Positions 8,569 to 31,411 of a stretch of 64,000 nt of DNA are shown here, in pieces (the first letter of the stretch is position 1; each line of letters starts with the position of its first letter). The translations under genes were made by a program, and so were the position numbers. The notes beneath the pieces are model-generated. The model saw only the letters and a list, made by a program, of their open reading frames with translations. It was not told the DNA's origin and did no database searches. The stretch comes from Gammaproteobacteria bacterium (lineage in GTDB: Bacteria; Pseudomonadota; Gammaproteobacteria; SZUA-229). The stretch covers positions 1 through 64,000 of the forward strand of contig JABDRN010000018.1 in NCBI GenBank assembly GCA_013041745.1, read 5' to 3'.

Positions 8569-8857
8569 GGATATTTTATGATAGATTTTCCTTGTCGCTA
8601 ATTCAGGTGATTTCATACAGTAAGACCTGTTTGTACTCCGTCTGAAAAGTAAACATTAAAATTTGTCAGTGAATTTATTGATTAGATTGAAAGGCAGGTT
8701 TTTTTAACCTGATGCACTTTAAAACGTCGATAAGTTAGCGAAAAACCTTGCAATTTTACTAATCACAGGGCATTCTCTACGGTCAATACATATCATTTCC
8801 ATGTGGGTATGTAACACTCATTATTTTATGTAAATGAACATGAAGGTAGCTTTGGGC
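8569..8857. other. Intergenic region upstream of the RND pump
   Basis: About 290 bp between epmA and the pump operon. It is AT-rich. The only structure noticed is a short hairpin, CAGGTT (8695-8700) and AACCTG (8706-8711) around five T. I see no convincing terminator, promoter hexamer pair or gene here. Confidence 0.4.
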
Positions 8858-10000
8858 ATGTCAATTATAATAAGTCGAATAAAACTTCCTCTTTATCTCT
8901 CCTTAACTCTACTTACCGGATGGTCCGCTCAAGCTCAGGCAGACAATGTAATAACCGTAGGTGTCGCACCACATGGCGGTTATGTCATTCTTGGTGGCAG
9001 TGTGATACCGCTGAAAGAAGTTACTCTCGCAGCCCAGATGCCCGGACGTATCGTGAGTATCGCGGGTGAAGAGGGTGATGAATTTCCTGCTGGTACCGAG
9101 CTGGTGAAGATCAATGACGATGACCTGCTGGCCAAAAAAGCAGCCGCTGAAGCACAACTGGTGACATCGCAGAACGCGATGCAGAATGCGCAGGTTCAGT
9201 ATAACCGGGAGCTGTGGAATCCACGTGTTTACAACCCGCGGCCAATGGCGGGTATGGGTATGCCATCCATGTTCGACGGTTTCTTTGATGATAATGATTT
9301 CATGCCGGGTACCGGTAATAAAAGTATCGAAAGGCATGCGGACCTTGTCACGCAGGGCACTCAGGTGGCATCTGCCCGTTCACGCATAACCGAGGCAGAA
9401 TCAGGCTTGCGTGAGATCAATGCTAAATTGCGAGACACCAAGGCGATTGCGCCATTCGACGGCATCATCATGCAGAAGCTGGTTGAGATCGGTGACACCG
9501 TTCAGCCGGGGCAGCCCATGATGGTGTTCTCCTATTCAAAATATCTACGCATACAGGTTGAGGTGCCGGCACGCCTGATGCCTGGGCTGACAAAGGGGAT
9601 GGTCGTCCCAGCGAGGCTGGACGTCGGTAATACCCAGATCAATGCACGAGTAGCGCAGATCGCACCTATCGCTGATAACAAGCAGCATACTGTCACTGTC
9701 AAATTTGATCTGCCTGAAGGCGTACCAGGCGGTGCAGGTATGTATGCCGAGGTAATGATCCCTGATGTTAATTCACCGACCAGGGCGCTTCCTGTGATAC
9801 CAAAATCTGCCATCAGCAAGCGCGGCAGTCTGCCTTCGGTCAAAGTTCTGGATGAAAATAACGTGCCTAAGATGCGTTTGATCCGTACCGGTATCGAAAT
9901 TGGTGATAACACTGTGGTAGTACTTTCCGGGCTTGAGCCAGGCGAGAGAATTTTGATCAATAGCAGCGAGCCAAAACCACCGATACCCTGGGATAAATAA
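8858..10000 (+). CDS. RND efflux periplasmic adaptor (membrane fusion protein)
   Basis: Periplasmic adaptor linking an inner-membrane RND pump to an outer-membrane channel. A signal peptide (hydrophobic run then AQA before DNV) is followed by a lipoyl half (LAAQMPGRIVSIAGEEGDEF), a short helical hairpin, the second lipoyl half (TKAIAPFDGIIMQKLVEIGDTVQPG) and the beta-barrel region. The hairpin contains an unusual Pro/Met/Gly-rich insert (NPRPMAGMGMPSMFDGFF). The ATG at 8858 gives the best signal peptide and has GAAGG upstream; an in-frame ATG at 8834 is the alternative. The permease follows 161 bp later. No outer-membrane factor gene is nearby. Substrate unknown. Confidence 0.9.
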   Translation: MSIIISRIKLPLYLSLTLLTGWSAQAQADNVITVGVAPHGGYVILGGSVIPLKEVTLAAQMPGRIVSIAGEEGDEFPAGTELVKINDDDLLAKKAAAEAQLVTSQNAMQNAQVQYNRELWNPRVYNPRPMAGMGMPSMFDGFFDDNDFMPGTGNKSIERHADLVTQGTQVASARSRITEAESGLREINAKLRDTKAIAPFDGIIMQKLVEIGDTVQPGQPMMVFSYSKYLRIQVEVPARLMPGLTKGMVVPARLDVGNTQINARVAQIAPIADNKQHTVTVKFDLPEGVPGGAGMYAEVMIPDVNSPTRALPVIPKSAISKRGSLPSVKVLDENNVPKMRLIRTGIEIGDNTVVVLSGLEPGERILINSSEPKPPIPWDK

Positions 10001-10015
10001 AAGCAAGGCAGTGTG

Positions 10016-10105
10016 ATGAGATCTCCGGATGACTTACCAGGGCCGATTATTAATACGGGCGATCAGTTTCGATATCGGCCTGATGTGTTGTCGCAGACCT
10101 ACTGA
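10016..10105 (+). CDS. Possible 29-residue mini-ORF between adaptor and permease
   Basis: ATG at 10016 preceded by AAGG (10005-10008) opens a 29-codon frame ending at TGA 10103-10105. The peptide begins MRSPDDLPGPIIN and has no signal peptide or membrane segment. It could be a real small gene, a leader, or chance; nothing else supports it. Confidence 0.2.
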   Translation: MRSPDDLPGPIINTGDQFRYRPDVLSQTY

Positions 10106-10161
10106 GCGACTGCTAAAAGTGAAAAAATAATAGCCAGAATAATATGAGCGATTGTTAGAAA

Positions 10162-13100
10162 ATGACTGATGAACTGGATAAAAATCAAAACGATAGTGAC
10201 GATTTGAATGGTGATGTAAAGCCACCCGCCTCCACCGACGGCAGAGATCTTGGCCTGGCGGGTACGATAGCAAAAACGTTTATCAATTCACCTGTCACCC
10301 CGATGTTACTGATTGCGACATTACTCATCGGCCTGAGCGGATTGATATTTACACCACGGCAGGAAGATCCCCAGATATCGGTGCCTATGATCGATATCTT
10401 CGTCTCATATCCCGGCACCTCGGCGCAGCAGGTGGAAAGCCTGGTCACTGATCCGTTGGAGAGGTTGATGGACGAGATCCCCGGGGTCCGCCATACATTC
10501 TCTGCTACCCAGCGCGGTAATGCGATAGTCACCGTCCAGTTTTACGTTGGTGAGAACCTGGGTGAATCCATCGTCAAGGTCACCGATAAGATTAATTCAA
10601 ACATGGATATGATGCCGCCGGATGTAATGCCTCCTCTGGTAAAACCGGTGGCGATCGATGATGTGCCGGCGGTGGCCGTTACCCTGTGGTCGAAGGAAGT
10701 CGATGACAGTACTTTACGGATCCTCGGTAACGATGTTCTACAGGAGCTTGGCCAGGTAAAGAATACTGGTAAAGGTTTTGTGGTCGCAGGCCGCTCGGAC
10801 CAGATTCGCGTCGAAGTATTACCGGAGCGCTTAGCGGGTTACGGTATCAGTCTGCAACAGGTGGCGGGTGCTATTACTGTCGCTAATACCCAGAAGAATG
10901 TCGGTGCGGTCGAAGCGGGCAGTAAATCATTTACCGTCTACTCGGGTTCTTTCCTGCGTACCGCCGATGATATCAAACGCCTGGTGGTCGGTATGAACCA
11001 GGGTTCACCAGTGTTCATGCGAGATGTTGCTGAGGTCTATCATGGTCCTGAAGATGCCAGGAATATCTCCTCTTATTACGCAGGGCCAGCCTATGAAGGC
11101 ATCGAGCGACCAGTGGGTGATCCTGCGGTTACCGTAGCGATCGCAAAGAAAGAAGGTACCAATGGCGTTACCGTTTCTAAAGCGATCCTGAAAAAGCTGG
11201 AAGAATTAAAAGGTACCATCATCCCGGATAATGTTTATGTAGAGATTACCCGTGACTATGGTAAGTCCGCCAACGACAAGGTAAATGAGCTACTGGCTGC
11301 GATGTTCGAGGCCACAGCGGCTGTTGCTATATTGTGTTTGATCGGCCTGGGTTTCCGTGCTGCATTCGTCGTGGTAACTGTGATACCAGTTGTTATCCTT
11401 ATCACTATCTGGTGGGCCTGGATGGTCGATTACACTATCGACAGGGTCAGTATGTTCGCACTGATTTTCTCTATCGGTATCCTGGTTGATGATGCTACCG
11501 TGGTGGTGGAAAACATATTCAGACACTGGTTGATCAAGGGTCGAACTACTTTACCTGACGCGGTAGATGCGGTCCGAGAGGTTGGTAATCCCACCATCCT
11601 GGCGACATTTACCATTATCGCCGCCTTGCTGCCTATGGGCTGGGTGAGCGGTATGATGGGCCCCTACATGCGTCCGATTCCGGTAATGGGCGCTTCAGCG
11701 ATGTTCTTCTCGCTGGTCGCAGCTTTCATCTTCACACCGTGGTTTGCCGTTCGAGTCCGCCCACAACTTGACGCGCTGGAAAAAGCAGAGAAGCGAGAAG
11801 AGAAGACGCGAAAGTTCGTGGCAGCTATATATCGCCCGCTTATCATGCCGCTGGTGAACAGCCGCAAACTTGGGATTATATTTCTTATCAGCGTGATCGC
11901 GGTTACTGCGATGACGATGTTACTGTTTTACCCGACGCAATGGGTCGCGGTTAAGATGCTGCCATTTGATAACAAACCGGAGTTTAGCGTAATCATCAAT
12001 ATGCCCGAGGGTACGGCGATGCCTGTGACCGCTAACCTGGCGCATGATCTCGCCGTTGCGCTTAACGAGATGCCTGAAGTAGAAGCGATACAGACTTATG
12101 CAGGTACCGCGCAGCCGTTCAACTTCAATGGTATGGTGCGACACTACTACCTGAGGAAGCAACCCTGGCATGGTGAACTGCTGGTGCTGTTAAAAGAGAA
12201 GCATGACCGTGAAAAAAGCAGTCACCAGATAGCAGAAGAAGCGCGTGCCATGCTGACGCCGATTGCAAAAAAAGCCGGTGGTCGAATTGCTATCGTAGAG
12301 ATGCCGCCTGGACCGCCGGTACTGCAAACTGTCGTTGCCGAAATTCATGGACCTGATGCAGAAACTCGACGCGAAGTAGCGAACAAGATGACAGAGTTTT
12401 TTGAACAGGCCGAAGGTGTCGTCGATGTTGATAACATGATGAATGAACCATCGCTGCACTGGCGTTTTGAAGTCAACAAGGAAAAAGCAATACGCAGAGG
12501 AGTCACGGTAGACAGTATCAATGGCACCCTGGCTATGGCCATGGGCGGCTTCAAGCTGGGCGATGTGAAACGTGCATCGGTCATCGAACCAACATTTATC
12601 GTTGTCCAGGTGCCGATGGCGACACGTTCCCAGGTGAACCAGTTGAGTAACCTGCCGATGGTAACATCGGATGGCACTATCATACCCCTGGGTGAGTTAG
12701 GTCGCTTCGTCCTCGAAGAAAATGAGCCGATTATCTGGCATAAAGATCTGCGTAATGTCGAGTTTGTTACCGGCGAGATGGAAGGCCGTCTCGGTGCGCC
12801 GATCTACGGTATGTTTAATGTTGAAGCGTTTTCTGATCAATACACCACACCGGATGGCGTCATCATGGAAGGTATGCCGATGAACCTGATCGGTCCGCCT
12901 AGCACTGATACCAAATCGGGCTTCGAGTGGACCGGGGAATGGACCGTTACCTTCGAAACATTCCGCGACATGGGTCTTGCTTTCATGGCGGCGCTGGTAT
13001 TGATCTACGGTTTGATCGTCTGGGAATTTCGTGACTTCGCCCTGGCTGGCCTCATCATGTCACCGATCCCGCTTACCATGATCGGTATCGTGCCTGGTCA

Positions 13101-14265
13101 CTGGTTTCATGGTGCTGAATTTACAGCGACTTCTATGATCGGCATGATCGCTCTGGGCGGTATTATCGTGCGTCAGTCTATCCTGATCGTCGAGTTTGTG
13201 AAGATCGAAGTGTCTAAAGGTATCCCGGTGAGAGAGGCGGCTGTCAACGGTGCTGAAATACGTATGCGTCCGATCTTCATTACTTCTCTGACATTGATGG
13301 CTGGCGCTTTTGCTATCCTGAATGATCCGATCTTTAATGGTATGGCTATCAGCCTGTTATGGGGTGCTGGCGTTGGTACATTAATGGCTGTTATCGTGAT
13401 ACCGCTAGGCTGTATCAGTGTGCGTGAAAACTTCTACTTTGTAGAGTCGGCGTCGGGTGAAAGGATTATCAGTGAGAAATTTGCCGAGATTGAGGGTGAG
13501 AGTCCCGAGCAGCTGAATGCAGCTGAGACCGAGTATAAAACGCCATTATGGATGAAGGTATACGGTGTCATCGTTGGAATCTTCGGCTGGATTTTTGTTA
13601 TCGGACAGATGATTTTCAATATCTTACGTATGCTGTTCGGTATGGTCATGGGTATGTTCGGTTCTGATTCGACACCTCCTCCATCCTCGACACCACCGCC
13701 CACGGCTCCGTCTACGCCTCCTCCTGCGCCACCGGCTACTCCGCCCCCTGTCACTACTGATGATAAATCAGAAACTGGGGCTAAGGGTAAATCTGATGAT
13801 AAGCCCGTGGCGAGCAAGAAGGTGGCTGCTGAAAAACCGGCCGTTAAAAAAGCACCGGTCAAGAAAGAAGCGCCTGAAAAAGCACCGGTCACGAAAGAAG
13901 TGCCTGAAAAAGCAACGGTGAAAAAGGTGGCAGCCAAGAAGCAGGCACCCGTTAAAGAACAAGTACCTAAAGAGACAGTGGCTGAGAAACCAGTGCCGGC
14001 AAAATCTGAGCCAGTCAAGGCTGCACCAAAACAGGTTGAACAAAAACAGGCTGAAACTGAGCAAAAAGAACCTGTAAAACAAGTGCCTGTTAATAAAGTC
14101 GCGGTTAAAAAGAAAACGATAGCCAAGAAAGTTGCTAAAAAGAAAGCGACCAGTAAGGTTGTTGCTGAAAAGATTGCTGTTAAAAAAATTGCCGTCAAGA
14201 AAGCACCGTCAAAGAAAACGTCACCGCGAGGTCGCCGGGGAATACGGTTGAAAGACGAGACTTAG
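10162..14265 (+). CDS. RND efflux permease with long Pro and Lys/Ala-rich cytoplasmic tail
   Basis: Inner-membrane proton-driven RND transporter. The first membrane helix is preceded by an acidic 30-residue N-terminus; the TM4 proton-relay motif reads GILVDDATVVVENI with the aspartates at 443-444. The two-fold repeat of membrane and periplasmic domains is intact to about residue 1110. The protein is 1367 residues, far longer than the usual 1030-1100. After an extra hydrophobic segment (about 1135-1160) comes a Pro/Ser/Thr stretch (about 1172-1195) and about 170 residues built from Lys, Ala, Val, Pro and Glu (KKAPVKKEAPEKAPV-like units), ending in PRGRRGIRLKDET. RND C-termini are cytoplasmic, so the tail should face the nucleoid. 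Paired with the adaptor upstream. Substrate unknown. Confidence 0.93.
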   Translation: MTDELDKNQNDSDDLNGDVKPPASTDGRDLGLAGTIAKTFINSPVTPMLLIATLLIGLSGLIFTPRQEDPQISVPMIDIFVSYPGTSAQQVESLVTDPLERLMDEIPGVRHTFSATQRGNAIVTVQFYVGENLGESIVKVTDKINSNMDMMPPDVMPPLVKPVAIDDVPAVAVTLWSKEVDDSTLRILGNDVLQELGQVKNTGKGFVVAGRSDQIRVEVLPERLAGYGISLQQVAGAITVANTQKNVGAVEAGSKSFTVYSGSFLRTADDIKRLVVGMNQGSPVFMRDVAEVYHGPEDARNISSYYAGPAYEGIERPVGDPAVTVAIAKKEGTNGVTVSKAILKKLEELKGTIIPDNVYVEITRDYGKSANDKVNELLAAMFEATAAVAILCLIGLGFRAAFVVVTVIPVVILITIWWAWMVDYTIDRVSMFALIFSIGILVDDATVVVENIFRHWLIKGRTTLPDAVDAVREVGNPTILATFTIIAALLPMGWVSGMMGPYMRPIPVMGASAMFFSLVAAFIFTPWFAVRVRPQLDALEKAEKREEKTRKFVAAIYRPLIMPLVNSRKLGIIFLISVIAVTAMTMLLFYPTQWVAVKMLPFDNKPEFSVIINMPEGTAMPVTANLAHDLAVALNEMPEVEAIQTYAGTAQPFNFNGMVRHYYLRKQPWHGELLVLLKEKHDREKSSHQIAEEARAMLTPIAKKAGGRIAIVEMPPGPPVLQTVVAEIHGPDAETRREVANKMTEFFEQAEGVVDVDNMMNEPSLHWRFEVNKEKAIRRGVTVDSINGTLAMAMGGFKLGDVKRASVIEPTFIVVQVPMATRSQVNQLSNLPMVTSDGTIIPLGELGRFVLEENEPIIWHKDLRNVEFVTGEMEGRLGAPIYGMFNVEAFSDQYTTPDGVIMEGMPMNLIGPPSTDTKSGFEWTGEWTVTFETFRDMGLAFMAALVLIYGLIVWEFRDFALAGLIMSPIPLTMIGIVPGHWFHGAEFTATSMIGMIALGGIIVRQSILIVEFVKIEVSKGIPVREAAVNGAEIRMRPIFITSLTLMAGAFAILNDPIFNGMAISLLWGAGVGTLMAVIVIPLGCISVRENFYFVESASGERIISEKFAEIEGESPEQLNAAETEYKTPLWMKVYGVIVGIFGWIFVIGQMIFNILRMLFGMVMGMFGSDSTPPPSSTPPPTAPSTPPPAPPATPPPVTTDDKSETGAKGKSDDKPVASKKVAAEKPAVKKAPVKKEAPEKAPVTKEVPEKATVKKVAAKKQAPVKEQVPKETVAEKPVPAKSEPVKAAPKQVEQKQAETEQKEPVKQVPVNKVAVKKKTIAKKVAKKKATSKVVAEKIAVKKIAVKKAPSKKTSPRGRRGIRLKDET

Positions 14266-14280
14266 TTAGTGAGGTCCATT

Positions 14281-14802
14281 ATGTATTTATGCCATAGTTT
14301 TGATTACCTAAAAAAAGCCTGTTATACAACGCTGCTAGTGGTTTTCTCGACAAACTTTCAGGTGCTTCAGGCAGCGGACGCTGCCGCGACAGGGCCAGGA
14401 GTTGCGCAGTCTGCCCCGAATGCGAATAACTCACGACAGAGAGCATATTATTTCCCTCGCTGGCCTGAGCGGAGCAATATACATAGAGTGGAGAGGGTGC
14501 CGCCGGCACCGCCGGGACCGTATATGTCATCGGCTATGACTCTAGACGGTTCTATAACGGAAAACTCACCATTTTCACGTGATCAGCGGTCTGCAAATCT
14601 ACCTGCTGGTGCCAGCGTCTCGAGATCAAAATTCAGTCCTGAGATTCCCTGGCCAAGTAATTCTGAAGCGCCTAATCGCTGGAAACCTGATACGGGTTAT
14701 CGCTATGCACCGCCAGGGATCGAAAACCAGGTATATCCTGTAGTACCTTCAAGTTATCGATACGGTTACAGCTATCCGGATATAAGCCGGCCAGCCCGAT
14801 GA
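14281..14802 (+). CDS. Secreted low-complexity Pro/Ser/Tyr-rich protein
   Basis: Not recognised. A signal peptide (hydrophobic TTLLVVFSTNFQVLQA before ADA) leads a 150-residue disordered region rich in Pro, Ser, Asn, Arg and Tyr, including RVERVPPAPPGPY and a Tyr-rich end (GYRYAPPG, SSYRYGYSYPD). No cysteine lies in the mature part. ATG 14281 is chosen because GAGG lies 7 bp before it; a GTG at 14269 in the same frame is possible. It starts only 15 bp after the permease stop, so it is probably cotranscribed with the pump and exported to the same compartment. Its composition resembles that of the two secreted proteins downstream, but there is no clear alignment. Confidence 0.7.
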   Translation: MYLCHSFDYLKKACYTTLLVVFSTNFQVLQAADAAATGPGVAQSAPNANNSRQRAYYFPRWPERSNIHRVERVPPAPPGPYMSSAMTLDGSITENSPFSRDQRSANLPAGASVSRSKFSPEIPWPSNSEAPNRWKPDTGYRYAPPGIENQVYPVVPSSYRYGYSYPDISRPAR

Positions 14803-15042: not shown

Positions 15043-15717
15043 ATGCAGTACAGGTTTATACACAATAAATTATTTACAGGCCGGTCTATGGCTGGTGGGA
15101 TGTTTAGCTTACTGATGATAATGGTTTCACCTGTGAAAGCTGACGATGGCAGTTCTCTGTATCCAGTTCAAGAAATAGCTGAAAAATCTAATCCCTGGGC
15201 CTTACCTCAACAGCAGGAAAGGCGGCCCGGGTATCAGCAGCAGCCGTATAGAGGGCAGACCCAGCCTGATGATAGTCGAGGACCATCTCAGCCGTCTCAT
15301 CAGTGGCAACCACCGAGGGATCGCTTCGTCACTCCTTCGTTTCTCGAGTCCTTAAAAAAACAGCAGCAACAGTATCAGGTCATGCCGGAAAACCGTCAAC
15401 AGCCACAAGGTGGGCGTAACCCGTGGCGGTCAGGACCATCATTACCTGGGCAGGGGGCTTATGGTTATCCATCATATGGCAGCGGTACGGTTAATCCATT
15501 GTATGACGCACCGGCGGTATCGCCATGGGGTGACGGTGCCGATGTCCTGCTCCGTGGCGAATCATTTCCTATGGTCCCAAGTGAGGCGCTCGGCGGTCTG
15601 CCGCCGATGCATGTGCCATCATTTGGCATGAAAAATTTTAAAAACAGTGAATCTGAAGAGCCTAGTGAGGTTTATGAAGGCAATGTTTTTAACCCGTTTA
15701 CGTTTTTACCCGATTGA
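15043..15717 (+). CDS. Secreted Gln/Pro-rich protein
   Basis: Not recognised. A hydrophobic signal segment ends at VKA before DDGSS; the mature 190 residues are mostly disordered, dominated by Gln, Pro, Arg, Gly and Tyr (PGYQQQPYRGQTQPDD, KKQQQQYQVMPENRQQPQGG). A somewhat more ordered C-terminus contains GGLPPMHVPSFGMKNF and an acidic stretch, ending NPFTFLPD. Start at ATG 15043; ATG 15088 is also in frame and would still leave a signal peptide. It lies 240 bp after the previous gene and 155 bp before the sulfur globule-like gene, so it may be its own unit. Periplasmic or surface structural role is a guess. Confidence 0.65.
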   Translation: MQYRFIHNKLFTGRSMAGGMFSLLMIMVSPVKADDGSSLYPVQEIAEKSNPWALPQQQERRPGYQQQPYRGQTQPDDSRGPSQPSHQWQPPRDRFVTPSFLESLKKQQQQYQVMPENRQQPQGGRNPWRSGPSLPGQGAYGYPSYGSGTVNPLYDAPAVSPWGDGADVLLRGESFPMVPSEALGGLPPMHVPSFGMKNFKNSESEEPSEVYEGNVFNPFTFLPD

Positions 15718-15872: not shown

Positions 15873-16337
15873 ATGAAATCAATGATGAAAGTTGCTGCTA
15901 TGACCGCAGCATTAGGTTTTGCAGTAGCTCCTCTGTCAGCAAGTGCTGACTGGGATATGCCATGGGACAATAATAATAACAGCAGCAATAACTGGAATAA
16001 CAACAACCGTTGGAATAATGACGGTTATGGTTCTGGTTCTGGTTATGGCGACGGTTATGGCGATGGTTCTGGTGATGTCGATGGTAGCTTTAATTTTGGC
16101 ATGAGCGGTAAAGGAAGTGGCCGCGGTCGTGGTGATGCTCGTAATGAGTATTATGGTAATGGCTATAACAATATGGACAACCGTTGGGACAACCGTTGGG
16201 ACAATAACAGTGGTTACTATAATAACCGTGGTTATGGTCGTCCTTACTATGGTCCAGGCCCGGGTTACGGTTATGCTCCGCGCCCTTATGGTGCGCCACA
16301 GGCTGCACCACAGGCTGCACCTGCTCCAGCACAGTAA
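15873..16337 (+). CDS. Sulfur globule protein-like secreted Gly/Asn/Tyr-rich protein
   Basis: Likely structural protein of the envelope around periplasmic sulfur globules, by resemblance to Allochromatium vinosum Sgp proteins. A clean signal peptide ends ASA before DWDMPWDNN. The mature part is low complexity: Asn/Trp repeats, GYGDGYGDGSGD, then SFNFGMSGKGSGRGRGD at residues 72-88, the segment most like the Sgp FNxxMSGxGRGxG region, then NRWDNRWDNN, a Tyr/Pro/Gly stretch and PQAAPQAAPAPAQ. 154 residues suits the family. It is monocistronic: own promoter, 5' hairpin, strong Shine-Dalgarno and terminator at 16352. Low-complexity composition makes homology hard to prove by eye, so a similar extracellular matrix protein cannot be excluded. 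Confidence 0.75.
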   Translation: MKSMMKVAAMTAALGFAVAPLSASADWDMPWDNNNNSSNNWNNNNRWNNDGYGSGSGYGDGYGDGSGDVDGSFNFGMSGKGSGRGRGDARNEYYGNGYNNMDNRWDNRWDNNSGYYNNRGYGRPYYGPGPGYGYAPRPYGAPQAAPQAAPAPAQ

Positions 16338-16393: not shown

Positions 16394-17176
16394 ATGAAGT
16401 ACTCTACAACCATATTATTTTTGCTATGTACTGCCTACACTGCATTTCTGCAGGCCGCATCTTTTACTGCGGACGCTGTGCAGATCCGTGGCGAAAATAT
16501 CAGTCACGCCAAGATGTTCTGGTTAGATGGTAACGTGCGATTTGAATACACCGAAGATGGCGTGCCGATGGCACAGATTTTTGACAATAAGAACAACAAG
16601 ATAATCTGGCTGGATAACGAGAATAAATACTACCTGGAAAGGGAGATGCCAGAGAGTGAGAGAGTAACGACAGGAAGTAAAAATACAAAAACAAACGATC
16701 CGTGTAAACAGTTCGCTGATGCGGAATGTGTGTTTCTTAAAAAAACCAAGATAAATGGCAGAAAGGCTGATAAATGGCTTATCACATTGGATAATAATGG
16801 CCATGATTTTCATATTTTTCAATGGATAGATGAGAAGTATAAGAATATTCTGAGACAGGAAAACTCTGATGGATCAGGGTTAAGTGTGGCAATAAAAGAT
16901 GACCAGGAAATGAATGGTCGAAAAGTCAGGAAACTGACCATGATCGCGTTTAGCGCATCGGGCGAGCAGCAGCAGGGTACCCAGTGGTACGACAATGAAC
17001 TTGATATCGTGGTAAAGCAAGAATATCAAGATGATGTAATTGATGAGCTACGAAATATTGAAGTAGGTAAAGTGGACAAGTTACTGTTCTCGATACCAAA
17101 GGATTACGCTCTGTTCGATAGCAAGGTACAGACAGCGCAGCAGAATGAAACTGATTTACCAGTTAATGGAAATTAA
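16394..17176 (+). CDS. Secreted DUF4412/LolA-like protein
   Basis: Periplasmic protein of unknown role. A signal peptide ends LQA before ASFTADAV. The body has the feel of a LolA-like half-barrel (DUF4412 type): repeated strand pairs such as VRFEYTEDG, IIWLDNENKYYLEREMP, KADKWLITLDNN and a closing KVDKLLFSIPKDYALF. Two cysteines (DPCKQFADAEC) may form a disulfide. 260 residues. It follows the strong terminator, and 86 AT-rich bp separate it from the ParA gene, so it could head or precede that operon. It resembles the gene at 59264 in size and fold type but not closely in sequence. Assignment to DUF4412 is tentative. Confidence 0.6.
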   Translation: MKYSTTILFLLCTAYTAFLQAASFTADAVQIRGENISHAKMFWLDGNVRFEYTEDGVPMAQIFDNKNNKIIWLDNENKYYLEREMPESERVTTGSKNTKTNDPCKQFADAECVFLKKTKINGRKADKWLITLDNNGHDFHIFQWIDEKYKNILRQENSDGSGLSVAIKDDQEMNGRKVRKLTMIAFSASGEQQQGTQWYDNELDIVVKQEYQDDVIDELRNIEVGKVDKLLFSIPKDYALFDSKVQTAQQNETDLPVNGN

Positions 17177-17262: not shown

Positions 17263-17889
17263 ATGATAACAGTCGTTGGAAATCTAAAGGGTGGTACGGG
17301 AAAAAGTACGGTTGCATTTAACCTGGCGGTCTGGCTCGCACATGATAAGGCCGGGGTGAAGGCATTTGACCTTGACCCGCAGTGTACACTGGTCGATGTT
17401 GGTGAAGTCAGAGTCGAGGATGGCTATGAACCGTCTTTCGAGGTTTCCACTGACCTGGGTGAGCTGGAAGCACTGGCAAAAGATAAAAAAAACAAACAGC
17501 CGATTATTGTAGATATGAGTGCCACAAACATGTTTGCCATGGAAAAAGCCATTTCATTGGCAGACAGGGTGTTGATACCGATTCAGCCGAGTCAGGCCGA
17601 TATCTGGTCGACACAGCGTTTCCTGAAAATAGTAAACAATAATATCGATAAGAAAAAAACAGAAGTTCTGGGATTTCTTAATCGGGCTGATACACATATC
17701 GGTGTGCGCGAGACAGATGAAGCTGATCAGGCGCTACAGATGATGCAGGGCATAAAGGCCCTGGGTATACGCTTGCATCAGCGTACGGCCTACCGTCGTT
17801 CATTTAGCGAGGGGCTTGCTGTATTCGAGCTTGACCCGATGGGGAAAGCATCAAAAGAAATGAAGCAACTGGCGATTCTGCTAGATTAG
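17263..17889 (+). CDS. ParA/MinD-family positioning ATPase (orphan)
   Basis: Small ParA-type ATPase (208 residues, no N-terminal helix-turn-helix). The deviant Walker A KGGTGKST is at 9-16 with the signature lysine K9; Walker A' is FDLDPQ, and PIIVDMS is the Walker B-like strand. RTAYRRSFSEGLAVFE near the end is typical of the family. It opens a run of five genes (17263-22089). There is no ParB gene or parS-like repeat beside it, which argues against chromosome or plasmid segregation and for cargo positioning as in McdA, ParC or PpfA. The cargo is not known; the membrane proteins that follow are the obvious candidates for an adaptor. Confidence 0.88.
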   Translation: MITVVGNLKGGTGKSTVAFNLAVWLAHDKAGVKAFDLDPQCTLVDVGEVRVEDGYEPSFEVSTDLGELEALAKDKKNKQPIIVDMSATNMFAMEKAISLADRVLIPIQPSQADIWSTQRFLKIVNNNIDKKKTEVLGFLNRADTHIGVRETDEADQALQMMQGIKALGIRLHQRTAYRRSFSEGLAVFELDPMGKASKEMKQLAILLD

Positions 17890-17969
17890 TATTGGTCTAA
17901 CAGGTATCGCTCACTATCAAGTGCTGCAATGAGAAATTACTGATAATGTTGCGAGTCTAGAGGTTAATT

Positions 17970-18800
17970 ATGAAGATTATTCGTTGGTTATTAAGTCATA
18001 CATTCCTTATCCTGTTAATCGTAGCAGTGATTTATTGTTATATGTTCTGGGGTAACCTTACCGGTGAAGACACTCCGGCAGGAAAAGCGATAGCATACCT
18101 GTCAGATGAGTTTGTTGAAGTTGAAAGCTTTGTCGAGGCGGTCAAATCTAAGCAGGCAGAGCTGGCCAGTGAGAGATCGAGCGCAGAGAAGCCGGTTGCC
18201 CTTACAGAGACCGGGACAAGCACCGAACAACGAGCTGTCGTACAGCAGCCAGTGAACATCAGCTACAGCCATAACCAGAAACCTGTCGAGCAGAGTGCGA
18301 TGGCTGTTAACAATACAGGAGCTGGAGCTCAGGCCACGGCGGGTGCGGCAAATCGAATGATGCCAGCCGCAACGGCTCCTGCAGCAGCGATGAACAGGAC
18401 TAGTGAAAAGTTTATTTCACCCGAGATTGAAGAGCAGCTGAGTAATGTAGATGAGCACGGCAAAGCCATCGATCCTTCGCAGACCGGTAATTCGGTGAAA
18501 GAGAGCTGGATAACCGCGAGAAAATCTTTTTATCAGCGTGATTATGATAAATCCATACAGAGCTATCAGGATGTGATTGATAATACTGAGGATAATTTTG
18601 ATGCCTATGGCGAACTTGGCAATGTTTATTTCAACCAGGGTAAAAAACGAGAGGCGGCATCTGCGTATTTTGAGGCGGCCGCTATACTCATTAAAAAAGG
18701 GCAGGTCAATCGAGCGCAGAGCTTGATGGGTTTGCTACGACAACTGGATGAAGCTAAGGCGAATGAACTGAAGACGCTGATCGACTCAGCCAGGTCATAA
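17970..18800 (+). CDS. Membrane-anchored TPR protein
   Basis: One membrane helix (about residues 6-27), short cytoplasmic start (MKIIRW), then a likely periplasmic 250 residues. Residues 60-140 are a low-complexity Ala/Pro/Gln/Thr linker; the last 100 residues form TPR-like helices (SWITARKSFYQRDYDKSIQSYQ, DAYGELGNVYFNQGKKREAASAYFEAAAIL). TPR folds bind other proteins, so this is a likely scaffold. It is 80 bp after the ParA gene and 15 bp before the DUF302 gene. No specific family recognised. Confidence 0.75.
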   Translation: MKIIRWLLSHTFLILLIVAVIYCYMFWGNLTGEDTPAGKAIAYLSDEFVEVESFVEAVKSKQAELASERSSAEKPVALTETGTSTEQRAVVQQPVNISYSHNQKPVEQSAMAVNNTGAGAQATAGAANRMMPAATAPAAAMNRTSEKFISPEIEEQLSNVDEHGKAIDPSQTGNSVKESWITARKSFYQRDYDKSIQSYQDVIDNTEDNFDAYGELGNVYFNQGKKREAASAYFEAAAILIKKGQVNRAQSLMGLLRQLDEAKANELKTLIDSARS

Positions 18801-18815
18801 TCGAGGAGTTATTAC

Positions 18816-19406
18816 ATGTTTTATGCACTACGAAATCTATTTGCCCTGGTCGGTTTTCTGGCAATAGTCTGTGCAATCTATGCGGCTGTCAAGATAGCGC
18901 CAATGAAGCAGGCATTTGATGCTCTGGATGAAGGTGCTTTTGATGTCTACAGTGAGATGATGATCAAGGTATTAGAAACCGGTAATTCGGCTGAAGCCAT
19001 GGTCTGGAAAGTAAAAGTCAATGAAGACCTGTCCGCTGAAGAAGTTGAAGAGACCATGCGTTTTGTCGCTAACGAACACAACATAAAAAATGTAGGTGAA
19101 TTACCTCTGTCCGGTCAGGTCGAAGCAATGACAGGTGAAGAGTCTCGTTACCTGAAGATCTACATGTTCTGTAATGCACTTACTGCAGCACAGATGCTCG
19201 AATACAGTGATGCATATTCTGCATTTTTACCTTGTCGCGTCAGTATGGTCGAAGATAAAGAAGGTAAGTTATGGTTATATTCATTGAATATGGATGCCAT
19301 GATCTACGGCGGTACTCCTTTACCTGCAGATCTGAAAGAAGAGGCGGAAGGTGTAAAGGAGATTATATTGGATATTATGAATCGAGGCGCTGAAGGCGAT
19401 TTCTAA
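18816..19406 (+). CDS. Membrane-anchored DUF302 protein
   Basis: One N-terminal membrane helix (about 7-27) followed by a DUF302-like domain: the IYMFCNALTAAQMLEYSDAY segment, then FLPCRVSMVEDKEGKLWLYSLNMDAMI matches the usual DUF302 core (CNP..A..ll, LPCRV, v.ed.G.v.l). 196 residues. DUF302 has no settled biochemical role; it recurs in sulfur-oxidising bacteria and with sulfur-trafficking genes, as I recall. Two cysteines (in FCNA and LPCRV) could be functional. It starts 15 bp after the TPR gene and ends 1 bp before the next gene, so it is tightly coupled. Confidence 0.75.
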   Translation: MFYALRNLFALVGFLAIVCAIYAAVKIAPMKQAFDALDEGAFDVYSEMMIKVLETGNSAEAMVWKVKVNEDLSAEEVEETMRFVANEHNIKNVGELPLSGQVEAMTGEESRYLKIYMFCNALTAAQMLEYSDAYSAFLPCRVSMVEDKEGKLWLYSLNMDAMIYGGTPLPADLKEEAEGVKEIILDIMNRGAEGDF

Positions 19407-19407
19407 G

Positions 19408-20511
19408 ATGGCAGAAGATAAGAAGACTGACAAGCAGTCTGCAAAAAAAACTGCAGAGGCGAAGGCTAAGCCAGCCAGCAGTGCTGTAAAAAAAGAACCG
19501 GTTGCGAAAAAAACTGCAGCTAAAACAGCAGCCAAAGGCGCTGCAGGTTCCACAGCGTCAAAGACAGAAGAGCCTGTGCTGAAAGCATCTAAGGATGCAC
19601 TGGCAGCGATCGAGAAAGCCGGTGCTTCGAAAGATTCTGATATGAAAGCAGCGGCCAAGAAGATCAGTGACATGGATAAGGTTGCTGCCGATAACTCAAT
19701 AAAGTCGAAGAAAGGCGTTGATGAGTTAAAGGCGCGCGCGCATGAAGCAAAACAGCGTGCACAGAGAAAAATACTGGAAGAGTCTTACGTCAGCGACAAA
19801 CCAGCAGATCCCCTGGAGAGGCTTGCCAATACATTCGATAGTAGTGCACGCCGCTGGGAGATGGTGGTGTATCCATCGATGTTTGCCTTTGTGCTGTTAG
19901 CCGGTTATGGCTTTTTCCTGATTTATCGCTTAACGCATGATATCGCCATACTGTCACAATCAGTGACTCATATGGCGGTGATTGTCTCAGATGCGATGCC
20001 ACGTATGACAAAAGACCTTAATGTGATGACTGGCAGTATCGATAATATGACCGGTAACATCGATGGTATGACTACTGAGATTACTTCTATGTCGGGCCAG
20101 ATGGATAGCCTGACACCGATGAGCCATAATATTCAGAGTATGACGCACAACATCGGCAGCATGAACCGTTCCGTTTACGGCCTGCAGCGTGATATGCATG
20201 GTATGAACCGTACCGTATCCAGTGGTCCTTTCGGTATGATGAATGACATGATGCCATTCAGTTCTGACACAAATGTACCACCGCCGATACAGCCATCGCC
20301 GGTATGGCCTTCATATAATCCGGTGCCTCAGCAACAGCCTTTTTATCGGCCCTATGCAGCACCTGCACCAGTAGCGCCCGTTGCAGAGAAGCCCAAAGAG
20401 CCTCAGCAGACAGTCAAGACCGAAGTGACAATGCCGGGTGCGAGTCCGGTTTCACTAAAAGAGGTTTCCAGCCCAAAGGTTTCAGCGACAGTACAGGATA
20501 AAGGTAATTAA
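19408..20511 (+). CDS. Lys/Ala-rich membrane protein with periplasmic Met heptad repeat
   Basis: Not recognised. Residues 1-75 are almost entirely Lys, Ala, Glu, Ser and Thr (KKTAEAKAKPAS, KKEPVAKKTAAKTAAKG), like a histone H1 tail. A helical region (75-150) precedes one membrane helix (about 155-174), so the basic part should be cytoplasmic. Residues about 185-270 form a heptad series with Ile/Leu and Met at fixed places (IDNMTGN, IDGMTTE, ITSMSGQ, THNIGSM), a probable coiled coil. The end is a Pro/Tyr-rich linker. Genes on both sides are within 6 bp. A basic cytoplasmic N-terminus next to a ParA gene would suit a ParA-activating adaptor; that is inference. Confidence 0.8.
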   Translation: MAEDKKTDKQSAKKTAEAKAKPASSAVKKEPVAKKTAAKTAAKGAAGSTASKTEEPVLKASKDALAAIEKAGASKDSDMKAAAKKISDMDKVAADNSIKSKKGVDELKARAHEAKQRAQRKILEESYVSDKPADPLERLANTFDSSARRWEMVVYPSMFAFVLLAGYGFFLIYRLTHDIAILSQSVTHMAVIVSDAMPRMTKDLNVMTGSIDNMTGNIDGMTTEITSMSGQMDSLTPMSHNIQSMTHNIGSMNRSVYGLQRDMHGMNRTVSSGPFGMMNDMMPFSSDTNVPPPIQPSPVWPSYNPVPQQQPFYRPYAAPAPVAPVAEKPKEPQQTVKTEVTMPGASPVSLKEVSSPKVSATVQDKGN

Positions 20512-20517
20512 TCAGAT

Positions 20518-22089
20518 ATGTTAAACCGTCCGGATAAATCTATTCGAGATCGATTGACGAAACTGGAGACTCATCTGAACAATGAGAATCCTCTGTTGAT
20601 CGATGTGGTTTCTCGATTTAAAAAACTTGATACTGTCGCATATAAGATGGGTTTGCTGGATACCACTGATTCCTATGCAACCAGCATTCCGTGGTGGCCA
20701 CTGGTGTCTATACTCGGTACCTTTTCCGCGGGCAAATCGTCGTTCATCAATAATTTTCTTGATGATAAGCTGCAGCTGACGGGGAACCAGGCTGTCGACG
20801 ATAAATTTACCGTCATTACCTATAGCAACAGTAAAGAGAACCGGGTGCTGCCTGGTATCGCGTTGAACTCCGATCCTCGCTTTCCGTTCTACCAGATGAG
20901 TGATGAGATCGACAAAGTGGCCAGCGGAGAAGGTCGTCGTATCGATGCTTATCTGCAGATGAAGACGTCACATTCAGATAAGCTGAGCGGAAAGATCCTT
21001 ATTGACTCTCCCGGATTTGATGCCGATGAGCAGCGCAATGCTATTCTGCGACTGACTGATCATATCGTTGATCTATCTGACCTGGTGCTGGTGCTTTTCG
21101 ATGCACGCCACCCCGAGCCAGGTGCCATGCAGGATACGCTTGACCACCTGGTCGGCAATACAATCAACCGTAGCGATTCAGAAAAATTTCTCTACATTCT
21201 CAATCAGATCGATACCGCTGCGCAGGAGGATAACCCGGAAGCAGTAGTAGCTGCGTGGCAGAGAGCTCTGGCAGCCAAGGGCCTCACTGCAGGGCGTTTT
21301 TATTCAATTTATAACCAGGATGTCGCGGTGCCGATTGAAGATGAGGCAGTCCGCCAGCGTTTCGAAAGCAAGTGTGAGCAAGATAAAGCTGCCATCTTCG
21401 AGCGTATACATCAGGTCGAGGTTGAGCGTTCATATCGGATCCTGGGTGCATTGCAGACCATCGCCGGTGACATAGAAAACCATGTCGTACCCGTAGTTAA
21501 AGCAGCCATGACCCGATGGCTGAAAATGGTATTAACGATCGATGCCATTGCTATCGGCATTTTCATGATAGTCCTGTTTGTGCTTAGTAATATGTTCGAT
21601 AGCTGGGCGTTATTCTCATACGATTTCACTGATGAAGCTATCATATCTTCGCTGAAGTTAAGCCTGACCGTGGTGGGCTTTCTTGTCGTCCATTTTACTG
21701 CACGGGCTTTTTCTGCAAGAGTGATAGCGAAAAAACTGATGTCGAGTATATTTGCTGACAAGAGTCTCGCTGGTGAGCACCGTGAGGGCAAGATACTGGC
21801 TGGCAGCATTAAGAAAGCATTCCTGAAAAATACTCAGCCACTGAGGAGTTTGTTCAGGCCGATGCCGGTGGGCTGGTCGATGCGCTCCAAGCGTACCCTG
21901 GCCCAGGTGGCTGCAGATGCCAGTGAATTTATTCAGACAATGAATGATCGTTATACCCGGCCATCAGGTATGAAAGAGCCTGACACTGCAGCGCAGGTGA
22001 ACCCCGTACAGGGTGAAGCTGAACCCGCCGATGCCAACCAGGCTGCTTCTGTTGAACCGCTGTCTACGGTGAAGTCAGAGACTCATTAA
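20518..22089 (+). CDS. Bacterial dynamin-like GTPase with membrane segments
   Basis: Large GTPase of the dynamin superfamily, expected to assemble on and bend or remodel membranes. G1 is GTFSAGKSS (67-75), G3 DSPG (163-166), G4 NQID (229-232). Around residues 337-359 and 380-400 are two hydrophobic segments, placed as in membrane-inserted bacterial dynamins, with a C-terminal helical and Pro/Ala tail. 523 residues is short for a dynamin but fits a minimal bacterial type. It is the last gene of the ParA operon (6-bp gap). Alternative: another membrane-bound GTPase family such as EngA-like or YfjP-like; the dynamin reading is favoured by the G1 sequence and the paired hydrophobic segments. Confidence 0.85.
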   Translation: MLNRPDKSIRDRLTKLETHLNNENPLLIDVVSRFKKLDTVAYKMGLLDTTDSYATSIPWWPLVSILGTFSAGKSSFINNFLDDKLQLTGNQAVDDKFTVITYSNSKENRVLPGIALNSDPRFPFYQMSDEIDKVASGEGRRIDAYLQMKTSHSDKLSGKILIDSPGFDADEQRNAILRLTDHIVDLSDLVLVLFDARHPEPGAMQDTLDHLVGNTINRSDSEKFLYILNQIDTAAQEDNPEAVVAAWQRALAAKGLTAGRFYSIYNQDVAVPIEDEAVRQRFESKCEQDKAAIFERIHQVEVERSYRILGALQTIAGDIENHVVPVVKAAMTRWLKMVLTIDAIAIGIFMIVLFVLSNMFDSWALFSYDFTDEAIISSLKLSLTVVGFLVVHFTARAFSARVIAKKLMSSIFADKSLAGEHREGKILAGSIKKAFLKNTQPLRSLFRPMPVGWSMRSKRTLAQVAADASEFIQTMNDRYTRPSGMKEPDTAAQVNPVQGEAEPADANQAASVEPLSTVKSETH

Positions 22090-26979: not shown

Positions 26980-27852
26980 ATGTCAGGTAGTTCTGAGGAA
27001 TTAGTAAAAGCCGGTTTTGAAGTAGTGGCAAAGAGTATTGAGCCATCACTAATGGAGTACACGTCTGTTAGCCGGTGCCAGGCAAAAATTCAAACCTATC
27101 TTGGACAGTACATAAGTACCTTTACTACTGAGCTTCCTGGTGCTTTTGCACGCAATACCATGATATCACCGCTTAAAGAAAGTATCGTAGATATGCTGGT
27201 GCTGTTCAACAGTGAGCATAGTGAGCGTTTCCTCCCGGCAGAGCTGCTGAGCAAGCTGCATGTTACCCTGCGTGCAGAATATCCGGGCACAACTTTCGAT
27301 GAATCGACCGAATCAGTATATGTGCCTGTTGAGAGTTTTACATTCAGGGTGCAGCCTGGTTTTATAACTGAAGAAGAACATTATCTGGTTCCTGCACCAG
27401 GCTGGGATGAGTGGGTGGAGTATGATTCGATAGGTTATAAGCGCCTGTTTTCCAGGATGAATGCAAGGCATGAAGGGAAGTTGTTAAATTTGGTGAGGAT
27501 GATGAAAACGTGGAACCGTCTGTCCGGTAACACCTTCGATGGTTACTTTCTTGAGCTTCTGGTCATTAACGTTCTTGCCAATCACAAAATTCAGACATAC
27601 CAGGCTGCTATCAGCCATTTATTTAGAGCTATCCTTGCGGATGTCGCTCTGAAGCAGCATGACCCGGCAAACCAGAGTCTAAATGTAGAAGGTTTGCACA
27701 ATCTTGAGGAAGTTGTTAATGCCATGATACTGGTGAAAAATTCATACCTGGTCTCAAAGCGTGCTATCGAGCTCGAGCAAGAAGGGGAAATGAAATCGGC
27801 CCTGACGAGCTGGGCGCAATTGTTTCCAGCTATGCTTCCAGGCAAAATATAA
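26980..27852 (+). CDS. CD-NTase-like (SMODS-type) protein with lost catalytic residues
   Basis: 290 residues with the layout of a cGAS/DncV-like nucleotidyltransferase. The helix-strand GAFARNTMISPLKESIVDML (54-73) aligns to the usual GSxARGTxIxPLxDxDxD, but the Gly-Ser is Gly-Ala and of the two aspartates only D71 remains. Where the third aspartate is expected (VDVVPAF-like) this protein reads FRVQPGF. Downstream, PAPGWDEW, the Asn in RMNARHEGKL and RMMKTWNR fit the family's C-terminal core. It probably cannot make a nucleotide second messenger. No CBASS effector, Cap2 or Cap3 gene is adjacent. It lies between an MFS gene and a convergent LysR gene. It could be a nucleotide sensor, a decoy or a remnant. 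Confidence 0.65.
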   Translation: MSGSSEELVKAGFEVVAKSIEPSLMEYTSVSRCQAKIQTYLGQYISTFTTELPGAFARNTMISPLKESIVDMLVLFNSEHSERFLPAELLSKLHVTLRAEYPGTTFDESTESVYVPVESFTFRVQPGFITEEEHYLVPAPGWDEWVEYDSIGYKRLFSRMNARHEGKLLNLVRMMKTWNRLSGNTFDGYFLELLVINVLANHKIQTYQAAISHLFRAILADVALKQHDPANQSLNVEGLHNLEEVVNAMILVKNSYLVSKRAIELEQEGEMKSALTSWAQLFPAMLPGKI

Positions 27853-28953: not shown

Positions 28954-30363
28954 ATGAGTAATAGAAAAACACTTTACGATAAACTATGGGACGATCATGT
29001 CGTCAGAACCGAGGAGGACGGTACCGCTTTATTGTACATAGACCGCCACCTGGTGCATGAGGTTACCTCGCCACAGGCTTTTGAAGGGTTGCGCATGGCT
29101 GGCCGTGAGCCATGGCGCACCGGTTCGATCGTTGCAGTGCCTGATCATAATGTACCTACCACCGATCGCAGTGAAGGTATCACTGATCCGGTAGCAAAGC
29201 TGCAGGTAGAGACTCTGGACAACAACTGTAAAGAGTTTGGTCTCACCGAATTCGATATGTCAGATCAGCGTCAGGGCATCGTTCATGTCATCGGGCCTGA
29301 ACAGGGTGCGACATTGCCTGGTATGACGGTGGTCTGCGGTGATTCGCATACATCGACTCACGGTGCCTTCGGTGCCCTGGCCTTTGGTATCGGCACCTCG
29401 GAGGTCGAGCATGTGCTGGCGACACAGTGTCTGATGCAGAACAAGAGCCTGAATATGCTGGTTTCGGTCGACGGCCAGGTTCATCCGGGTGTTACTGCAA
29501 AGGACATCGTACTAGCTATCATCGGTGAGATTGGTACCGCGGGCGGTACCGGATACGCGATCGAGTTTGGCGGTGATGCCATACGTGCGTTATCTATGGA
29601 AGGCCGTATGACGGTATGTAATATGGCGATCGAAGCCGGCGCACGTGCCGGTATGGTAGCAGTTGATCAGACCACGATTGATTACGTTAAAGGCCGTCCA
29701 TATTCACCGACTGGCGACAACATGGAAAAAGCGGAAGCCTACTGGTCGACGCTGCACAGTGATGACAATGCAAAATTCGATAAGCTGGTTCATATCGATG
29801 CTGCAGAGATCAAGCCACAGGTGACCTGGGGCACTTCGCCAGAAATGGTGGTCGACATCGATTCATCTGTACCTGATCCTGAGGCTGTGAGTGATAAGGT
29901 GAAAGCAGACGGCATGCGCAAAGCACTGGCTTACATGGGGCTGGAAGCAGGGATGCCAATCTCGGATATCGCAGTTGATAAAGTATTTATCGGTTCATGC
30001 ACCAATTCGCGCATCGAAGACCTGCGTGAAGCAGCGGCGATCGCCCATGGTAGACAAGTATCTGATCATGTCAAACTCGCCATGGTGGTTCCGGGTTCAG
30101 GACTGGTGAAAAAACAGGCCGAGGAAGAGGGCCTCGACAAGATATTTATCGATGCTGGATTTGAATGGCGCGAACCCGGTTGTTCCATGTGTCTGGCAAT
30201 GAATGCTGACCGACTGGAACCAGGTGAACGATGTGCCTCAACCTCTAACCGTAATTTTGAAGGCAGGCAAGGCCAGGGTGGCAGAACGCACCTGGTAAGT
30301 CCTGCTATGGCAGCTGCTGCTGCGATCAATGGCCATTTTACAAACATTAACGAATTATCTTAG
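28954..30363 (+). CDS. leuC: 3-isopropylmalate dehydratase large subunit
   Basis: Aconitase-type 4Fe-4S enzyme interconverting 2- and 3-isopropylmalate in leucine synthesis, working with LeuD. Cluster ligands are in FIGSCTNSR and in GCSMCLAMN (CxxC). [29 protein letters not shown] is canonical, and 469 residues is the standard length. A small lipoprotein gene separates it from leuD; all three are likely one message. Confidence 0.98.
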
Positions 30364-30370
30364 ACGAGAG

Positions 30371-30562
30371 ATGAAAATGAGATTTTTTATTACACTGGCT
30401 GTAATGCTGACAGTCGTTTCCGCCTGTAACTTTAAGGAAGGTTTAAAAGAGACCGGCGATGCGATTCAGGGCGGTACTCAAAATGCTGTTGAAGCAGTCA
30501 AAGGGGCTCCTGCTGACATAAGTGAAGCGTCAAACAAAGCTGAAGCCGATATCAAGAAGTAG
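30371..30562 (+). CDS. Entericidin-like small lipoprotein
   Basis: A 63-residue lipoprotein inserted between leuC and leuD. A signal peptide with lipobox VVSAC is followed by NFKEGLKETGDAIQGGTQNAVEAVKG, which resembles the entericidin A/B family (GxGxDxxxxGxxI and alternating helix). The ATG at 30371 has GACGAGAG before it; an upstream in-frame ATG at 30329 overlaps leuC and would bury the signal. Function of such small lipoproteins outside the Ecn pair is poorly known. No antitoxin-like partner is visible. Confidence 0.75.
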   Translation: MKMRFFITLAVMLTVVSACNFKEGLKETGDAIQGGTQNAVEAVKGAPADISEASNKAEADIKK

Positions 30563-30584
30563 ATTAAAACAGTAGATAATTTCA

Positions 30585-31220
30585 ATGCAAAAATTTAATA
30601 AACATAGCGGTATCGTTGCACCGCTGGATCGACCGAACGTCGATACCGATGCGATCATCCCCAAGCAGTTTTTAAAGTCGATCAAACGTTCCGGCTTTGG
30701 GCCTAATGCCTTTGATGACTGGCGCTACCTCGATGAGGGTGGTCCCGATATCGATAATGCCAGCCGCCGACCGAATCCTGATTTCGTTCTAAACCAGCAG
30801 CCTTTTGATAAGGCGACGATATTACTGGCACGTGAAAACTTCGGCTGCGGTTCTTCTCGAGAGCATGCGGTATGGGCGCTGGATGATTTTGGTTTCAGGG
30901 CAGTGATCGCACCGAGCTTTGCCGATATATTCTTTAATAACAGTTTTAAGAATGGCCTGCTGCCGATTGCACTGCAAGCATCAGTCGTCGATGACCTGTT
31001 CAAACGGGTGTCAGATAACAATGGCCTGGAACTCACTATTGACCTCGCTGCGCAGACGGTAAGTTGTGGCGATGAATTGATCGCATCGTTCGAGATCGAT
31101 GAGTTTCGTAAACATTGTATGTTGAACGGTCTGGATGATATCGCGTTGACACTGCAGCATGCCGATGAAATAAAGGCATATGAAGCAAACAGGAAGCAGT
31201 CAGCACCCTGGCTGTTTTAG
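30585..31220 (+). CDS. leuD: 3-isopropylmalate dehydratase small subunit
   Basis: Partner of LeuC in leucine synthesis. Contains [18 protein letters not shown] near the start and [25 protein letters not shown], the family signature; 211 residues is typical of the bacterial LeuD. It starts 22 bp after the entericidin-like gene. leuB follows after a 191-bp gap with its own possible promoter. Confidence 0.97.
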
Positions 31221-31402: not shown

Positions 31403-31411
31403 GAGAGAGCT

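Follow-up and report, generated by a model that had tools for sequence, protein, structure and literature searches.

A gene for a ParA-type ATPase in a 64,000-nt stretch of gammaproteobacterial DNA (assembly GCA_013041745.1, contig JABDRN010000018.1, positions 1 to 64,000; hereafter the window) was found to belong to a gene cluster that probably encodes a ParA-based system which positions the envelope's sulfur globule apparatus and shapes membrane for it. A preliminary description of the window had taken five genes at 17263-22089, coding for ParA, a TPR protein, a DUF302 protein, a KAP protein and a dynamin-like GTPase, to be a system by themselves. These five genes are the 3' half of a larger cluster, which starts upstream at the HlyD and RND genes (8834-14265). 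We lean towards the view that the RND pump is the adaptor of ParA, acting through a C-terminal R[RK]GI[RKQ]LK peptide in a dedicated system for globule positioning and biogenesis, which would be coupled to a dynamin that shapes the membrane around the globule.

All genes of the cluster are on the + strand (coordinates are positions in the window), and the full order is HlyD, RND, two secreted proteins, sulfur globule protein (SGP), LolA-like, ParA, TPR, DUF302, KAP and dynamin. The five open reading frames (ORFs) of the 3' half were recovered exactly as first described, with gaps of 80, 15, 1 and 6 bp between them. The block had also been said to adjoin a sulfur globule-like gene and an RND pump, and both assignments were borne out. 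The SGP gene (15873-16337), which occupies a conserved position and encodes a signal peptide, passed the PF17228 cut-off in the Pfam scan (28.7 versus 26.7 bits). The RND gene (10162-14265, 1367 aa) was full length (ACR_tran, 2e-137; closest solved structure 6vej, an RND) and had the gene for the HlyD-type periplasmic adaptor (membrane fusion protein, MFP) adjacent upstream (8834-10000; Pfam HlyD_3, 6e-15). No TolC outer-membrane partner was seen in the flanks of the locus, which were the part that the search covered.

The conservation of the cluster was assessed by scanning genome contigs with the DUF302 protein as the query, which yielded 80 loci, and by clustering their ORFs. The order RND-c9-c13-SGP-LolA-like-ParA-TPR-DUF302-KAP-dynamin, in which c9 and c13 are the two secreted proteins, was present in the closest relatives. 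Reduced or permuted forms occurred in more distant Gammaproteobacteria and in Alphaproteobacteria, namely Magnetovibrio blakemorei MV-1 (L061), two Magnetovibrio bins (L059 and L060) and Rhodospirillaceae (L085 and L092), and the cluster was also present in genome G316 (locus L302). The gene order recurred over gammaproteobacterial families, and a core of RND, LolA-like, SGP, ParA and KAP recurred in other classes. The neighbours of ParA were counted with profiles built for this analysis at 104 ParA loci, using for each count only the loci with enough flanking sequence. Upstream of ParA there were RND (65/71), HlyD (37/44), LolA-like (63/89) and SGP-like genes (58/87), and downstream there were KAP (76/94), dynamin (64/75), TPR (66/100) and DUF302 (61/97); since the first 49 loci had been found by DUF302, the last of these counts is circular for them. 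In the other classes, RND (12/18), LolA-like (14/20), SGP (13/20) and KAP (19/20) accompanied ParA, DUF302 was absent, and TPR and dynamin were rare. The conserved neighbours of ParA are thus RND, LolA-like, SGP and KAP. The idea that the five genes alone form the system did not hold, because RND, SGP and LolA-like are conserved with ParA to no lesser degree, whereas three of the five are absent or rare in other classes.

The same gene order recurred in dozens of genera, far above chance, in line with what had been proposed, and there is hardly any doubt from these comparisons that the cluster is a conserved unit. It is very improbable that we are dealing with ordinary envelope genes that adjoin by chance in related genomes and form no functional unit. 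Some of the order is simply inherited, as the genes for PSD, PCuAC, PrmB and chorismate synthase downstream are also kept in order in close relatives; however, the operon genes keep their association in other families and classes, where the flanks differ, the ParA orthologue is restricted to sulfur oxidisers, and ParA and the tip motif of the pump are lost together, as given below. For RND, SGP, LolA-like, ParA and KAP, we count a chance neighbourhood as refuted.

The link to sulfur was examined in a class sample of 276 genomes, at least 90% complete and from about 159 families. A genome was regarded as a sulfur oxidiser when it had dsrA or soxB above the curated cut-off, and as SGP-positive when it had a Pfam SGP match. 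The ParA orthologue was sharply bimodal in this sample: 49 genomes had it at 36-100% identity (E<=3e-35), and the best matches in the rest were at most 35% identical (E>=1e-21). All 49 carried dsrA or soxB, versus 76 of the 227 others. The orthologue was present in 37 of the 40 SGP-positive genomes (odds ratio 230, p=6.6e-32), the exceptions being G107, G220 and G161. The association persisted among sulfur oxidisers only (odds ratio 75, p=8e-18), and with one vote per family 23 of 24 SGP families carried the orthologue. Co-occurrence and gene order inside and outside sulfur-globule formers, the comparison suggested at the outset, therefore tied the unit to the globule formers, and a functional tie of the cluster to sulfur globules is very probable. 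The window's own genome (G000) had soxB and seven SGP matches, and no full-length dsrA; besides the SGP gene of the window, four matches lie in tandem on contig 90 of this genome, at about 29063-32613. Sulfur globules are known from many magnetotactic cocci and from cultured marine magnetotactic bacteria of the Alphaproteobacteria (PMC6783814; PMC4169400), in line with the presence of the cluster in Magnetovibrio.

The ParA gene (17263-17889) encodes a small ParF-like ATPase. Its Walker A motif KGGTGKST and its CbiA and AAA_31 matches (CbiA, 1e-12) agree with the first description, and it scored 131 bits with the NCBIfam ParA_partition model, below the equivalog cut-off of 180. In an alignment of 69 sequences, the K, G, G, GKS and D residues were conserved, and R177, R181, R182 and K198 (L031 numbering) were invariant. 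No obvious membrane-targeting sequence was visible by eye in the C-terminal part, and the protein is predicted to be of the nucleoid type. The nearest solved structures by sequence were ParF (4dzz) and ParA (5u1g), both with E about 1e-10; ParF matched at 44.5 bits versus 27.3 for McdA. As first noted, neither ParB nor a carboxysome gene accounts for this ParA: Pfam scans of the window neighbours returned no McdB or carboxysome gene, and no ParB was found among the annotated neighbours, parS not having been searched for.

A feature that tracks the presence of ParA is the C-terminal end of the operon RND pump. In the window, the pump carries an added tail (residues 1166-1367, 13657-14262), which is disordered, is rich in Lys, Pro and Ala (45, 31 and 28 of 202 residues, respectively), and is matched by Pfam HC2, a histone H1-like family. 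The tails of the operon pumps were unalignable and varied in composition, being Lys/Ala-rich in the window but rich in Pro and Gly, without a basic character, in L078, L083 and L095. Despite the varied linkers they finish in one peptide, R[RK]GI[RKQ]LK. The window version of this candidate ParA-binding peptide is RRGIRLK (residues 1358-1364, 14233-14253). The class sample, two families that were searched more deeply and the other classes were pooled, and single-residue variants such as WRGIRLN and RRGIRIK were allowed. In this set, every one of the 84 complete operon pumps from genomes with ParA had the tip motif, which is conserved across classes. Nine class genomes in which the pump was cut by a contig end or masked were excluded from the motif call, and in G090 the motif lay in a shifted frame. 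Outside the operon, the same genomes carry at least ten RND paralogues with 54-59% identity to the query, which lacked the tail and the motif (G212:C187, G090:C7, G210:C198, two in G051, G260:C6, G202:C69, G300:C255, G094:C71 and G230:C7), and the motif was also missing from further RND copies of the two deeply searched families. Two of these tail-less paralogues (L238 and L240, that is G300:C255 and G094:C71) have an added C-terminal 'RISGIGPKIEALLNEAGI' segment, which resembles a helix-hairpin-helix domain. Since RND was searched in 74 preselected genomes only, a Fisher test of RND versus ParA over the 276 genomes was not used as evidence.

Loss of ParA went together with loss of the tip. 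Six pump-bearing genomes without the ParA orthologue also had no motif. Three of them, G107, G220 and G308, belong to one family and have kept SGP, LolA-like, TPR, KAP and dynamin, with a hole at the place of ParA. G305 has neither ParA nor motif, and its sister genomes of the same family have both; G161 has no ParA and a degenerate tip, RKSVRIK, and its relatives have both. The sixth is G688; the other five are known to have kept KAP and dynamin. Three genomes with the motif and without ParA (G676, G708 and G712) have contigs that stop just past LolA-like or the pump, either where ParA would be expected or short of it. A tail made for the dynamin was also considered and is unlikely, because the dynamin is retained where the tail is lost (L140, L152 and L173).

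In standard RND pumps, the N- and C-termini are both cytoplasmic. In L175, L230 and L249, the tail follows directly after the twelfth transmembrane (TM) segment; since no further hydrophobic segment separates the two, the tail is placed in the cytoplasm in these pumps, as we read it for the window. Most other orthologues have an extra hydrophobic or amphipathic stretch of ~30-50 residues before the tail, which we read as a membrane-surface or hairpin element. From the joint presence and loss of ParA and the motif, it is quite probable that ParA engages the pump tip. The preliminary suggestion named sulfur globules or the pump itself as a possible target, and it agrees with this result, as the motif that tracks ParA sits on the pump.

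A different assignment of the ParA partner must be weighed here, in which ParA works with KAP (or TPR), the RND tail tethers to the nucleoid in the manner of histone H1 by binding DNA non-specifically, and its RRGIRLK end is a DNA-binding patch. In the other classes, KAP (19408-20511) is found downstream of ParA more often than any other gene, the tail is matched by HC2, and KAP in the lineage of the window has a strongly basic, Lys/Ala-rich head. However, that head was mostly neutral or acidic outside the lineage, so it was rejected as a conserved nucleoid or ParA contact; of the initial picture of KAP as a Lys/Ala-rich one-helix protein with Met heptads, the helix and the heptads stood, and the head turned out to be lineage-specific rather than a conserved scaffold feature. 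In addition, the linkers of L078, L083 and L095 are not basic and the tip is still invariant, and a merely histone-like tail is weakened by linkers that vary whereas the tip does not. Where ParA is lost, moreover, KAP and TPR stay and the tail does not. A KAP or TPR partner is accordingly improbable. By alignment and TM prediction, KAP has one conserved TM helix at 154-172, in the extremely conserved segment SARRWELIVYPSLFAFIILAxYGFFLIYSLT, and 6 of the 12 Met-to-Met intervals in residues 175-275 are exactly 7. In one clade (L067 4629-5651, L071, L076, and L079 7053-7916), a second one-helix protein lies between KAP and DUF302, with a basic N-terminal head, a conserved IxKLQAMGVMSGG-like motif and a Gln/Met-rich part past the helix; it may be a functional analogue of KAP.

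It is also conceivable, though unlikely, that the cargo of ParA is the RND/HlyD pump alone, placed for example at the poles or between nucleoids, and not the globules. The pump would then export a by-product of sulfur metabolism or an envelope lipid, and SGP would be a neighbour by shared regulation. The location of the tip motif on the pump agrees with this explanation, and so does the linkage in the gammaproteobacterial and alphaproteobacterial loci, which is tightest for HlyD (28/28) and RND (53/53) upstream of ParA and lower for SGP (45/67). Furthermore, 12 ParA-positive genomes had no Pfam SGP match. On the other hand, three of them (L155, L175 and L249) have an SGP-like gene by the profile built for this analysis, ParA is present in nearly all SGP-positive genomes, and several classes have SGP within the operon. 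The positioning of globules by ParA through the pump is the probable alternative.

The mechanism that we favour draws on earlier work. Partners of ParA/MinD (A/D) ATPases act via a positively charged disordered terminus (PMC10241942; PMC12204374), and in ParB, hydrophobic residues around a central Arg or Lys contact the ParA dimer interface and the Walker B loop (PMC12462528). The I-[RKQ]-L tip appears to be of the same kind as the ParB peptide, but is C-terminal and on a pump. Sulfur globules are extracytoplasmic (PMC10386293; PMC6509183), and because of this a cytoplasmic ParA needs a membrane-spanning link, which the pump would provide. In the proposed sequence, ATP-bound ParA dimers would sit on the nucleoid, and the long flexible cytoplasmic tail of the pump would present the R[RK]GI[RKQ]LK tip. 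The tip would dock at the ParA dimer interface and stimulate ATP hydrolysis, like the terminal peptides of ParB, ParG and McdB. The SGP, LolA-like and KAP/TPR/DUF302 proteins would tie the pump to the globule site, so that pump and marked site follow the ParA gradient, and globules would thereby be spaced along the nucleoid and partitioned at division. The dynamin would act where the inner membrane bends around the extracytoplasmic globule; for its shaping of the globule membrane we see about an even chance.

Several points weigh against this mechanism. The conserved unit and the sulfur link are read from the sequences themselves, whereas the contact between ParA and the tail and the positioning are deduced from them. 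ParA and the tail were lost together about three times independently, which means that the covariation p-value treats the genomes as more independent than they are. G674 is discordant, having ParA and dynamin and only tail-less pumps found. The extra hydrophobic segment leaves the membrane side of the tail formally open in the orthologues that have it, and the peptide of the known A/D ATPase partners is N-terminal, whereas the candidate here is C-terminal. The 12 ParA-positive genomes without a Pfam SGP match count here as well. The dynamin was associated with SGP (odds ratio 57), but it was also found apart from the operon, and ten of the genomes that carry it had neither dsrA nor soxB; since it occurs alone, it is regarded as part of a wider family and was rejected as a specific marker, ParA being cleaner. 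Finally, SUP05 bacteria have periplasmic globules and were reported without dynamin (PMC6509183).

The secreted LolA-like protein (16394-17176; DUF4412-like) has two invariant cysteines, C104 and C112, and its AlphaFold model (pLDDT 89) matched LolA and RseB significantly by E-value; as the TM-scores were low, the fold is called only LolA/RseB-like. The TPR protein (17970-18800; TPR matches at residues ~187-240, MamA model at only E=0.006) and the DUF302 protein (18816-19406; Pfam E=7e-12, two invariant cysteines in the alignment) have one N-terminal TM helix each, as first described, and their bodies are predicted from the charge pattern to be periplasmic. A search of solved structures with the DUF302 protein gave no match. 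In many sulfur oxidisers, close homologues of DUF302 (61-67% identity) lie in other surroundings, with no ParA operon nearby (L056, L057, L062, L064, L065, L068, L081 and L084).

The dynamin gene (20518-22089; PF00350, E=4.5e-14) encodes an EHD-like GTPase with two hydrophobic helices and the previously noted motifs G1 GTFSAGKS, G3 DSPG and G4 NQID, whose residues are invariant (GK73S74, DSP165G and NQ-D232). Its AlphaFold model, built with 50 aligned sequences (pLDDT 85), fitted EHD4 best (5mtv; E 6e-11, TM-score 0.48/0.63) and then a bacterial dynamin pair (5owv). By sequence, EHD2 and EHD4 were its only matches among solved structures, and the Pfam scan found no EH domain. Dynamin paralogues of ~240 aa without a G domain follow directly after DUF302 in L067 (6268-6987), L079 (8600-9328), L071, L080, L096 and L109, and keep the TM pair and the FLKNTR..S.FRP..GW end.

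The two secreted proteins between the pump and SGP, one small and Pro/Tyr-rich (c9, 14269-14802) and the other Pro/Gln-rich (c13, 15043-15717), are of low complexity with the short conserved motifs PPxPPGPYMSSA and NPLYDxPxVSPWG; their ORF clusters were kept only within the lineage, among close relatives, and they are candidates for additional globule-coat proteins. Elsewhere in the window, a CD-NTase/SMODS-type nucleotidyltransferase gene (26980-27852; PF18144, E 1e-12), possibly a defence-type gene, is flanked by an MFS gene and by a gene for a LysR regulator.

Known ParA cargos are chromosomes, plasmids, microcompartments, flagella, chemotaxis arrays and conjugation machinery, and if the proposed mechanism is true, a storage organelle and an inner-membrane pump join them. 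To our knowledge, no C-terminal ParA-partner peptide on a transporter has been known before. The open-access papers searched, subscription papers lying outside the scope, contained no link of sulfur globules with ParA, dynamin, RND or DUF302 and no machinery for the placing or inheritance of globules. With this cluster, machinery for placing and shaping bacterial sulfur globules may have been identified for the first time. The analysis gives named genes and a seven-residue candidate ParA-partner peptide, and the cluster offers a genomic marker by which sulfur storage may be predictable in uncultured bacteria.

Among known systems, the cluster resembles those built on A/D ATPases (McdAB of carboxysomes, ParC of chemotaxis arrays, FlhG of flagella). 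These likewise have a small deviant-Walker ATPase beside the cargo genes and a short, positively charged, disordered partner terminus, for which a candidate is present here (PMC10241942; PMC12204374). Here, however, the candidate partner motif is the C-terminus of an RND pump, the putative cargo is a sulfur globule or envelope complex, and the annotated neighbourhood has no ParB, McdB, carboxysome or chemotaxis gene. ParF of the TP228 ParF/ParG pair is the closest solved ParA, and ParG likewise works via a flexible Arg-bearing tail; the similarity is distant, neither ParG nor a centromere was seen in the annotated neighbourhood, and the operon here includes a pump and a globule protein. With the EHD ATPases and bacterial dynamin-like proteins, the window dynamin shares its fold (EHD4 5mtv, and 5owv), though the similarity to EHD is partial, and it differs in having no EH domain, in its two hydrophobic helices and in its place within a ParA operon. 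SgpA/B/C/D of Allochromatium vinosum are likewise SGPs with a signal peptide (PF17228) and form extracytoplasmic globules, for which no positioning or membrane-shaping machinery was described in the papers found. Magnetosome clusters (MamK/MamJ/MamA) are likewise storage or organelle clusters that mix a cytoskeletal NTPase, TPR and membrane proteins, and some hosts overlap (Magnetovibrio, L059-L061), but no mam genes were seen here and ParA stands in place of actin. By its sequence features, the system thus appears to belong to the ParA/MinD positioning systems, with the class of cargo and the architecture of the partner as its new elements.

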